From: Blastocatellia bacterium
GTDB lineage: Bacteria; Acidobacteriota; Blastocatellia; HR10
Assembly (NCBI GenBank): GCA_025055075.1
Contig: JANWYV010000004.1
Location: 124,001 to 188,000, forward strand
DNA: 64,000 bases
Reading direction: 5' to 3'
Shown here: piece after piece, positions 4,028-12,136 of the stretch
Position numbering within the stretch: the first letter of the stretch is position 1
How the letters are laid out: every line of letters starts with the position of its first letter
The notes under the pieces: generated by a model
Database searches by the model: none
Seen by the model: only the letters and a program-made list of their open reading frames with translations
Told to the model about the DNA's origin: nothing
Made by a program: the position numbers and the translations under genes

Positions 4028-4070
4028 TGTGCCATAGTATGAATCGTTCCTCATCCACGAGGAGAACGAG

Positions 4071-5120
4071 ATGGCTGAGACCGAACGCATTCGATTGACG
4101 CAATTCAGCCACGGAGCCGGTTGAGCGTGTAAGTTGAGTCAGAAGGACCTGGTCGAGGTCCTGAGCGCATGGGCTCCGATGGAGGATCCGCGCGTGCTCA
4201 TCGGCGCCAAGGACGCCGATGATGCGGGCGTTTACTTGCTCGATGAGCAAACGGCCCTCGTCTTCACAACAGACTTCTTCACGCCCGTCGTGGACGATCC
4301 GTATGCCTTCGGACAGATCGCCGTTGCCAATGCACTCAGCGATCTCTACGCTAAGGGTGTTGATCCGCTCCTGGCGCTTAATCTCGTGGGATTCCCGGCG
4401 AAGAAGCTGCCTCTTCATCTCTTGAGCGAGATCCTGCGCGGGGGTGCCGATAAGGCTCGCGAGGCTGGCGTCGTGATCCTGGGCGGACATACCGTGGATG
4501 ACCTCGAACCGAAATACGGTTTGGCCGTGCTCGGATTCGCCCGTCCGGAAGAGATCATCCCGAATTCAAGCGCGCGTCCGGGCGATCGTCTGATCTTGAC
4601 GAAACCGCTCGGCCTGGGAATCATCACAACGGGGATCAAGCGCGAGCGGGTCTCTCCCGAAATCGAAGCCGAAGCCGTCCGCGTCATGACGACGCTCAAT
4701 CGCGCTGCCGCGCACGCCATGCGTCGAATCGGCGTGCGCGCCGCCACCGATGTCACCGGATATGGATTGCTCGGTCACTTGCGCACCATGCTCGCGGCCA
4801 GCGGCGTGAGCGCGACGATCTGGCTCTCGCGCGTTCCCGTGCTCGCAGCCGCGTGGGAACTCGTCGCCGAGCGCATCGTGCCCGGAGGCACGCTCGCCAA
4901 TCACGCGTATCTCGCCCAATTTGTGGACTGGGACCCGGAGATCTCCGAAGAGGCGCAACTGGTCCTCTGCGATGCGCAAACGTCCGGTGGGATCTTGATC
5001 GCTGTCCCTCCGGAGAAAGTGGAAGCACTCTGCGCAGCGCTGGAGGAGAGTCACACGCTCGCTGCCGCCATTGGAGAAGTCACTACCGGAGCTGCCGGGC
5101 GAATCCGCGTTCTCCCCTGA
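4071..5120 (+). CDS. selD: Selenide, water dikinase SelD, probable selenoprotein (TGA at 4122-4124 read as Sec)
   Basis: SelD makes selenophosphate from selenide and ATP, the Se donor for tRNA-Sec. A downstream TTG at 4134 gives an open frame that lacks the N-terminal active site. Upstream in the same frame is an ATG at 4071 with a GAGGAG ribosome site. It encodes MAETERIRLTQFSHGAG, then TGA at codon 18, then ACKLSQKDL. This matches the SelD N-terminus RLTxxSHGAGCGCK exactly, with the catalytic Cys replaced by Sec (U18) and the partner Cys (C20) and Lys (K21) kept. The rest has the AIRS ATP-binding blocks (TTDFFTPVVDDPYAFGQIA, LGGHTVDDLEPKYGLAV, ATDVTGYGLLGHL). Total 349 residues including Sec, normal for the family. 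Sec-containing SelD is known in other bacteria; translation here needs SelB and tRNA-Sec, not seen in this window. Confidence 0.93.
4144..4162 (+). promoter_or_regulatory. Candidate bacterial SECIS hairpin in selD
   Basis: AGGACC (4144-4149) pairs perfectly with GGTCCT (4157-4162) around the 7-base loop TGGTCGA, which contains GGTC. The stem starts 19 bases after the TGA codon at 4122-4124. Bacterial SECIS elements are small hairpins lying directly downstream of the UGA inside the coding region, with a G/U-containing apical loop that binds SelB, so placement and form fit. SelB binding itself is inferred. Confidence 0.7.
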
Positions 5121-5121
5121 G

Positions 5122-6885
5122 TCACGCCTCCATCAATCCCGCCTTCACCAATTCCTCATCCGGCACTCGCACGAGCAGGACAGGACATTTCGCGTGATCG
5201 AGGACCTTGCGACTGACGCTCCCCATCAGGAATCGAAAGATCCCCGTTCGCCCGCGCGCGCCCATGACGATCAAGTCCGCCTGGATCTGATCGGCGAGCT
5301 TGAGAATTTCTTCGGCAGGATCGCCCAACACCATCAATTGGCGGTGAGAGATCAACCCCTGTCGCGCTAACTCAGCATTGGCCTCGGCGAAGATGCGCTC
5401 GGCTTCCAACTGGTGCGCAGCCCGCCATTCAGCCTCTCTCTCCGGACTGACATACGTGCTGCGTTCGACTCGAGAGAGCGGAGCGACATACAGCAGGGTG
5501 ATCTCCGCTCGCGCAGCGTCAAGCAACTGACTCACCCGTTGGACGGCCAAGCGAGCATTGGGCGATCCATCCACGGGAATGAGGATGCGTCGTGGCCGCG
5601 GCAAACGCTCCGGTTGCTCCCGCTCGCTCAACGCCACGACCGCCGGCAGCGGCATCCCCGCCAAGTACTTCAGCGCCGATTCTCCTCCAGTGCTCAAATG
5701 ACGGATCCGCTCGATCGGAAGACCGAACTGCCGAAGGGCTTGCGTCAGACTATCGCCGCAGATGATGACGTCCTTCCGCTCGGCCGGAACGCGCCCGGTC
5801 ACATACTCCGCCATCGCCCGCGTCCCCTCAGCGAAGGGAGCCCATTCCCATCGCCCGAGCGGGCCATTCCAAAAGACCGTGCGCGCCCAATCGAACAATT
5901 CCACGAGATGGCTGATCGTCATCGGCCCGATGTCCACGGCCACCGCATAAGCCGGGATCTCCGAGGCCACAACGACATGACGCGGAAGAGCCGCGATCTT
6001 CTCCGGATCGCCGTGCGCGTGCTCCAGCGCTTCCGCTTCGACGACGACGAAATCCGAAGGAAAGACGAGTCCCGTCGGATAGATCTCCCCTCGGCTCCCG
6101 AGCGCCTGCTCCGCCCGCTTGAGGAAATCTTCAGCGAGCTTAAGAAAGGCCGTGTTCACTGGAGACCGGCCGACTTCATACCCCTGCGCCTTGAGGAAGG
6201 TGAAACAAAGCGCCCCCCCGATGAAGAGCCGATCCACGCGGGGCAAGAGATTCTCCAAAACGGGCAACTTTTCTTCCAGGCGCGAGCCAGCGACAACAGC
6301 CAGAAATGGCTTCTGCGGATTCTTCAAGACGGCCTCCAACATCAACAGCTCGCGTTCCATGAGCAAGCCCGCGGCTGCCGGCGTCACGTAGCGCGTGATG
6401 CCGACCGTAGAGGCCTGTCCGCGATGGGCCAGTCCAAACGCATCATTGCAATACACGTCGGCCAGATCGGCCAACTGACGCGCGAAGGCCGCGTCATCCA
6501 AGTCCTCCTCCGCATAGAAGCGCAGATTCTCCACCATCAGGATATCGCCCGGCTTCAACTCGTCCACGAGACGTTCGACGTCCCGCCCCACGCAATCGTT
6601 CGCCTTGCGAACAGATCGCCCCAAGAGCTGGCTCAAGCGCTCGGCGAGCGCGTCCACGCGCCATTCCTCGACCACGCTCCCGCCCGGCTGCCCCCAATGC
6701 GTACCGATCACCACACGGGCCCCTGCCTGAATCAGGAATTGAAGCGTCGGCACCACTTGCTGGAGTTTGAAATCATCCGCGATCTCTCCAGTCCCCTCTC
6801 GTCGAGGGACATCACCATCTATTCGGACGAAGACCCGCTGCCCCGAAAGCTTCTCGCGAAGGTGACCGATCGTCAATTTCTCCAT
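5122..6885 (-). CDS. Phosphoglycerate kinase-like protein fused to a C-terminal UspA domain
   Basis: The 587-residue fusion has a PGK-like region (about 1-415) followed by a universal stress domain (about 432-575, ILIPVDGSPNARLAV to GARGRTG...GSVSRKV). PGK blocks are recognisable: RIDGDVP, GTHWGQPGG, ENLRF, DAFGLAHRGQAST, FWNGPLGRWE, ICGDSL and LSTGGESALKYLAG. Several key positions differ from canonical enzymes. The catalytic Arg after the first strand is Lys40, the Arg of THLGRP is Gln66, the first Lys of GGAKVxxK is Arg202 (Lys206 is kept), and the third Gly of the C-terminal GGG is Glu402. It may be a weakly active or regulatory paralogue rather than the glycolytic PGK. The ATG has GGAGGG in front. 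Its stop lies 1 base from the convergent selD stop. Confidence 0.88.
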   Translation of the reverse strand: MEKLTIGHLREKLSGQRVFVRIDGDVPRREGTGEIADDFKLQQVVPTLQFLIQAGARVVIGTHWGQPGGSVVEEWRVDALAERLSQLLGRSVRKANDCVGRDVERLVDELKPGDILMVENLRFYAEEDLDDAAFARQLADLADVYCNDAFGLAHRGQASTVGITRYVTPAAAGLLMERELLMLEAVLKNPQKPFLAVVAGSRLEEKLPVLENLLPRVDRLFIGGALCFTFLKAQGYEVGRSPVNTAFLKLAEDFLKRAEQALGSRGEIYPTGLVFPSDFVVVEAEALEHAHGDPEKIAALPRHVVVASEIPAYAVAVDIGPMTISHLVELFDWARTVFWNGPLGRWEWAPFAEGTRAMAEYVTGRVPAERKDVIICGDSLTQALRQFGLPIERIRHLSTGGESALKYLAGMPLPAVVALSEREQPERLPRPRRILIPVDGSPNARLAVQRVSQLLDAARAEITLLYVAPLSRVERSTYVSPEREAEWRAAHQLEAERIFAEANAELARQGLISHRQLMVLGDPAEEILKLADQIQADLIVMGARGRTGIFRFLMGSVSRKVLDHAKCPVLLVRVPDEELVKAGLMEA

Positions 6886-11056: not shown

Positions 11057-12136
11057 TCACAAGAGGCTCGGCTCTGTCGCTCCAGGACGAAAGCCCACAC
11101 CTTCGACAGAGATCATCCCCGGCTTCCCCACTTCTCCCTGCACTTCGAACTTCACGGGCAAGAATTGCTCGATGACCCACACATTGGTCAACAGGTGATG
11201 GGTGAGCTCAGAGACGGTGATCGTCGAACGCCCCTCGGCCAAAGCCATGTAGAGGACGAGTTGATCGGCCAGATGCCGATCCACCACTTTCCCAGAACGG
11301 TGATGTGCCATCAGCGCACGGTGCACTTCATCGGCGACCATCTCAGCGCGCTTCCCGATCTCGCCCAGCGCTCCGAATCCCGCGACGACCTCTCCATAGT
11401 GAGCGAAGACGAAGAGGCCCGTCCCTCTTCCGAGAGCTGGAGCTTGCACCAGCTCCACCTCGGCCACAAGCTCATATTGAGCCAGCCGTTGAATCAATCG
11501 CCGACCAAGACGTTCGGCGATCGAGAGGGGAAGATTGGAGACGACCGCCAAGCCTTCGATTTTGATCAACTCTTCCCGCTTGATCAGCTCAATCGCCGAG
11601 AGCCGTTCCACCGGCTCGATGTCCGCTTCGACGATTCCTCCGCCCTGAGGATACCATCCCCAGCGAATCGTCCTCGCGCTCGCGCGTCCTCCCATGCGCT
11701 GGAGCGCAGGCAAAAAGACCTTCTCCACATACGTCGTGGGGGGACTGAAGGGCACGTGCGTGCCGCCTTTGAGGACCAAATGCGTGGGACGCGGCGCAAA
11801 GAGTAAGGCAGGCAGAACAGCTTGGAAGATCAGGCTCACGGATCCAGCGCTCGCCCGAATCTTGCTCACATCGAATTCGTAGACGCCTCCCTCGCACTTC
11901 CCCGGCATGAAGATAAGTAGCTCCGAGCCCAATTCGTCCCCGAGCACACGCCCCCGCGTGATGTCTCGGATCGCGCGCACGGCCGTCAGGTGCTGCGGTT
12001 GTAGCCCCGGAACCTTCCGCCCGCGACGGATGTTGACGATCTCCACCTCGCGCGCGAGCAAGGCCGCGAGCGCCAAGCTCGTCCGCAGGATTTGCCCTCC
12101 TCCCTCGCCAACCGATCCGTCTATGCGCACGACCAT
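11057..12136 (-). CDS. rtcA: RNA 3'-terminal phosphate cyclase
   Basis: RtcA uses ATP to convert RNA 3'-phosphate ends to 2',3'-cyclic phosphates. The 359-residue protein has the signature IDGSVGEGGGQILRTSLALA, the block KIRASAGSVSLIFQAVLPALLFA, and VVDRHLADQLVLYMALAEG, whose His is the adenylylated nucleophile of the family. It is close to the usual 340 residues. No rtcB, rtcR or RNA ligase gene is adjacent, unlike the Escherichia coli rtcBA operon. uspA follows on the same strand. Confidence 0.95.
   Translation of the reverse strand: MVVRIDGSVGEGGGQILRTSLALAALLAREVEIVNIRRGRKVPGLQPQHLTAVRAIRDITRGRVLGDELGSELLIFMPGKCEGGVYEFDVSKIRASAGSVSLIFQAVLPALLFAPRPTHLVLKGGTHVPFSPPTTYVEKVFLPALQRMGGRASARTIRWGWYPQGGGIVEADIEPVERLSAIELIKREELIKIEGLAVVSNLPLSIAERLGRRLIQRLAQYELVAEVELVQAPALGRGTGLFVFAHYGEVVAGFGALGEIGKRAEMVADEVHRALMAHHRSGKVVDRHLADQLVLYMALAEGRSTITVSELTHHLLTNVWVIEQFLPVKFEVQGEVGKPGMISVEGVGFRPGATEPSLL

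Follow-up and report, generated by a model that had tools for sequence, protein, structure and literature searches.

A selD gene with a predicted selenocysteine codon at its catalytic position and a SECIS-like hairpin in a Blastocatellia bacterium

The window (the whole 64,000-nucleotide stretch of DNA analyzed) carries a selD gene whose product is, with a probability of about 0.97, a selenophosphate synthetase with selenocysteine (Sec) as its catalytic residue, inserted through SelB and the hairpin at 4144-4162. As judged from sequence comparison, codon 18, a TGA, is almost certainly read as Sec and not as a stop. This reading was considered settled because the TGA is conserved and the Sec machinery is present, rather than because of the hairpin. 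The case is built on the TGA, its presence in relatives, coding constraint to either side of it, the machinery genes and other UGA-containing genes, all of them features of the sequences compared.

The selD reading frame

The following features were placed in the window.

4060-4064 (+): Shine-Dalgarno-like AGGAG, 6 nt 5' of the ATG at 4071, assigned from the sequence
4071-5120 (+): selD, selenide, water dikinase, 349 aa, codon 18 predicted to encode selenocysteine, ending in TGA at 5118-5120
4122-4124 (+): UGA codon at the catalytic position, predicted to be read as selenocysteine (Sec18), TGA also in relatives G001-G006, G008 and G009
4131-4133 (+): conserved Lys codon (Lys21), aligned with the Lys of the E. 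coli SelD GCGCK motif
4134-5120 (+): truncated open frame as listed mechanically, TTG start, 328 aa, active site missing
4144-4162 (+): bacterial SECIS-like hairpin AGGACC-TGGTCGA-GGTCCT, 6-bp stem (4144-4149/4157-4162), loop TGGTCGA

Translated through the TGA, the frame from ATG 4071 gave MAETERIRLTQFSHGAG-U-ACKLSQKDLVEVL... (349 aa); around the codon it reads MAETERIRLTQFSHGAG-TGA-ACKLSQKDL and stays open to the TGA stop at 5118-5120. The read-through product matched TIGR00476 with 376.6 bits (E = 9e-113, cut-off 125) over model positions 1-310 of 311, and both the AIRS and AIRS_C domains were present. In a phmmer alignment, U18 and K21 fell on the Cys and Lys of 'SHGAGCGCK' in E. coli SelD (PDB 3u0o), which bears out the proposal of an earlier note that an in-frame TGA occupies the place of the catalytic Cys. 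Under table 11, the longest frame opens at TTG 4134 and does not contain the catalytic motif; gene calls made from that position do miss the active site, as had been anticipated.

Conservation of the UGA codon and coding constraint

When SelD of close relatives was aligned, as the earlier note had proposed, TGA was kept at the catalytic codon in 8 of 8 relatives that retain the SelD N-terminus (G001-G006, G008, G009), drawn from the genus, the family and the order and spanning 4 genera and 2 families. The ninth order relative (G007) was outside this count, its selD being interrupted by a contig end. A sequencing or assembly error for TGT or TGC, in a SelD with ordinary Cys, was weighed, as TGA is one base from either Cys codon and the assembly is in 59 contigs. 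The same TGA in eight relatives from separate assemblies (for example JZ-3 bin 73, an uncultured Blastocatellia MAG, HRbin10 and HRbin08) refutes such an error, against which the complete Sec machinery of the genome also stands, and we give it practically no weight.

Coding constraint was present on both sides of the codon. In the 17 codons 5' of the TGA, G001 and G003 differ from the window by 5-6 nucleotides, but all of these changes are synonymous and the peptide is identical; 3' of the TGA, dN was 0.043-0.054 vs. a dS of 0.56-0.58 (dN/dS about 0.08-0.09). This pattern argues against a pseudogene. The open frame from TTG 4134 exists, and translation from it alone would yield a truncated protein, but that form would drop the catalytic residue and the Lys from the only full-length SelD found (the two remaining matches to the SelD query in the same genome scored just 44 and 24 bits), and it would leave SelA without its donor enzyme. 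Decay of the gene, or its use only in truncated form, is thus very improbable.

Bacteria can read through UGA at a low level, and codon 18 could in principle be decoded by a near-cognate or suppressor tRNA, or under a reassigned code. Against this, selD itself ends in TGA in all genus members, five species out of five. One gene thus uses TGA with two meanings, Sec and terminal stop, and there is therefore no genome-wide reassignment of TGA. Codon 18 is moreover the catalytic Cys position, which many SelD genes fill with Sec and others with Cys, and tRNA-Sec, SelA and SelB are present, so that decoding other than by Sec insertion is held to be highly unlikely.

The selD neighbors (a PlsY-type gene, a glycosyltransferase and a PGK-type gene) are kept within the genus, and no sel gene adjoined selD in the neighborhoods compared there. 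As separate observations, the frame at 5122-6885 (-) encodes 587 aa, judged by eye to be phosphoglycerate kinase-like with a C-terminal universal-stress-protein domain, and is shared by the genus members over 586-587 aa; a frame at 11057-12136 (-) resembles RNA 3'-terminal phosphate cyclase (RtcA), by eye only.

Selenocysteine machinery and other UGA-containing genes

The Sec-decoding set was complete in the genome, with tRNA-Sec, SelA, SelB, SelD and further predicted selenoprotein genes. The tRNA-Sec has a TCA anticodon (C13:55984-56077, 75.2 bits), and selA (C53:15811-17169, 588 bits, cut-off 268) and selB (C53:77924-79822, 372 bits, cut-off 242) were both well matched, confirming the expectation that the organism carries all three. 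Across the class, SelB exceeded its cut-off in 38/39 genomes. For the tRNA 2-selenouridine synthase (MnmH/YbbB), no TIGR03167 match was obtained in the same genome and none over the cut-off in 39 relatives; among the known uses of selenophosphate, only Sec is therefore represented here.

From these genes we infer Sec insertion itself, binding of SelB to the hairpin and the enzyme activity of SelD. In the proposed order of events, SelB with GTP and Sec-tRNA-Sec would bind the selD mRNA hairpin at 4144-4162 and direct Sec insertion at the UGA at 4122-4124, the UGA at 5118-5120 would terminate SelD, and the enzyme would make selenophosphate from selenide and ATP. SelA would use this selenophosphate for Sec-tRNA, which would be needed by SelD itself and by at least 3 other predicted selenoproteins. 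The suggestion that the organism makes its own SelD by Sec insertion is supported to this extent by the conserved TGA and the machinery.

A search for other UGA-containing genes, likewise proposed beforehand, returned two peroxiredoxins and an AhpD-like protein.

C56:6966-7340: peroxiredoxin (L139), in-frame TGA at the catalytic position, conserved in the genus, SECIS-like hairpin after it
C10:2353-2808: peroxiredoxin (L140), in-frame TGA at the catalytic position, conserved in the genus, SECIS-like hairpin after it
C33:140055-140234: AhpD-like protein of the carboxymuconolactone decarboxylase family (L162), motif CEY-U, conserved in the genus

The TGA motifs of the two peroxiredoxins were FTGG-U and G-U-PFC. 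The hairpin of the C56 gene has a bulged stem (-0.2 with an ungapped scanner, yet visible in RNAfold), and the AhpD-like gene carries a strong GCCUG-GGC-CAGGC hairpin. SelD as the sole selenoprotein, serving only itself, was ruled out by these other UGA genes. They were sought by family search, and four including SelD is a lower bound. A second AhpD-family selenoprotein candidate (CFY-U) was seen in G002 (HRbin10; L164, C37) and G005 (L167, C105); the matches from the window's own genome included no counterpart. Sec formate dehydrogenase was not found, the Fdh-alpha matches in the same genome being below the family cut-off and having no in-frame stop, and the family search gave no match for a SelW-like protein (PF10262). 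One weak SelB match with '1 TGA' (C23:70250) was rejected, being an Obg-like GTPase in another frame and not a selenoprotein. A codon-usage scan for genes with in-frame TGA (the window and five stretches) missed SelD, a failed positive control, and was discarded.

The SECIS-like hairpin

The 6-bp stem with a GGTC-containing loop described by the earlier note was located at 4144-4149/4157-4162, starting 19 bases after the TGA. When the closing U-A pair is added, the hairpin has 7 bp and a 5-nt loop, GGUCG, with G first, 26 nt after the UGA (+26). Published criteria for a bacterial SECIS (bSECIS) are an apical loop of 3-9 nt, a stem of 4-16 bp, 16-37 nt from UGA to loop, and a G within the first two loop positions (PMC13188914). 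The loop (GGUCG, 5 nt), stem (7 bp) and spacing (26) of the hairpin lie within these ranges.

Equally strong hairpins within the SECIS criteria followed about 3.8% of 3,022 codon positions in genes of the window, and 4.35% of synonymous recodings of the selD stretch reached the same hairpin energy (P = 0.044). Because of these chance rates, the hairpin by itself is suggestive. By plain MFE the region did not stand out (z-score -1.13). The assignment as a bacterial SECIS agrees with the structural criteria, but the single hairpin is less decisive than its appearance suggests (P about 0.04). The hairpin is kept in six genomes with almost invariant pairs (one G-C to G-U change), and the six sequences vary too little for covariation at those exact pairs. 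Comparison of groups of genes gave stronger evidence: the best qualifying hairpin was more stable in Sec-SelD (59 genes, median -10.2 kcal/mol) than in Cys-SelD (13 genes, median -4.0 kcal/mol; Mann-Whitney P = 5e-8, relatedness not corrected for); the Cys side of this comparison represents about three independent groups.

Hairpin position across Blastocatellia

Compared SelD genes most commonly carry the hairpin at +33, and the SECIS-like hairpin of the window lies 7 nt nearer the UGA. The +33 position was found in most other Blastocatellia SelD and in several phyla. In 15 other Blastocatellia SelD genes (L033-L047) the +33 helix was 94.8% paired, with 12 compensatory cells vs. 3.3 in shuffles (0/500 as high). 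It was not seen in selD of the window's genus or its sister genus, where the best helix was at +26. Elsewhere in the order the hairpin was at +33 in G006 and at +17 in G008 and G009, and related genera thus appear to use +17 or +33 hairpins.

The SECIS position of selD is read as having turned over, the +26 pairs being too invariant for proof. It is possible, at slightly less than even odds, that the element was replaced in place in this family, with the +33 helix lost and a new +26 hairpin, different in stem and loop, serving the same UGA while the protein was conserved.

Selenocysteine and cysteine forms of SelD

Among 72 SelD proteins placed on a tree, Sec prevailed, and three changes of the Sec/Cys label were needed. 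Within the class, family f6 (Chloracidobacterium-like, name inferred) has TGT or TGC at the SelD catalytic codon (L027, L028, L030-L032), and its genomes retain tRNA-Sec, SelB and probable selenoprotein genes. A peroxiredoxin with a TGA-PFC motif was present in the three small f6 genomes, and a thioredoxin-like gene with TGA-GPC together with a peroxiredoxin with TGA-PWC in the two larger ones. These features are consistent with SelD having exchanged Sec for Cys in a lineage that continues to decode Sec, and Sec-to-Cys is the direction of SelD replacement reported previously (PMC1794560). Within the class, f6 is the sister SelD group (tree support 91/74). SelD of the window's order and f6 (L018-L032) groups apart from that of other Blastocatellia families (L033-L047), at 40-47% identity, and the two groups could reflect transfer or deep paralogy.

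Comparison with known systems and implications

The closest SelD sequences were those of HRbin10, HRbin08 and JZ-3 bin 73 (83-92% identity), followed by Chloroflexota, Rokubacteria and Desulfosporosinus (about 52-57% identity). Like known Sec-SelD, the gene has its UGA in a motif of the [S/G]-x-x-[A/G]-G-U-x-CK type, followed by a bSECIS-like hairpin. Unlike most compared SelD, which have the loop at +33 and a CA[G/A]-GUN-[C/U]UG core, it has the loop at +26 and a GGACC/GGUCC stem. Cys-SelD (E. coli 3u0o, Paenibacillus, f6) shares the protein family and motif with the SelD of the window, but TGT or TGC replaces the TGA and SECIS-like hairpins are weak or absent. In E. coli fdhF, the SECIS that follows the UGA has a small apical loop and carries GGUC in its loop region. 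GGUC in a small loop is common to it and the window hairpin; the two do not share their stem sequence or their spacing.

From one gene to another, bSECIS elements may be dissimilar, and among prokaryotic selenoprotein families SelD ranks second in how widely it is distributed (PMC13188914); in 2006, no selenoproteins were more widespread than FdhA and SelD (PMC1794560). Sec-containing SelD has been listed for many bacteria (PMC1794560, PMC13188914), and selenoproteins have already been listed for Acidobacteria (also PMC12013277). Among the papers searched, none contained both 'Blastocatellia' and 'selenocysteine'. Sec-SelD is common and well known in bacteria, and the selD of the window adds one more.

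The practical outcome is a corrected gene call, as the automatic call would lose the SelD active site. HRbin10-type Blastocatellia can be added to the list of organisms whose Sec-decoding system is complete, with at least 4 predicted selenoproteins. The Sec-to-Cys replacement in f6 and the shift in SECIS position fit trends already described (PMC1794560) and overturn nothing. If the replacement in place is true, a SECIS can turn over within constrained coding sequence, and these genomes would offer a natural series for studies of SelB recognition.
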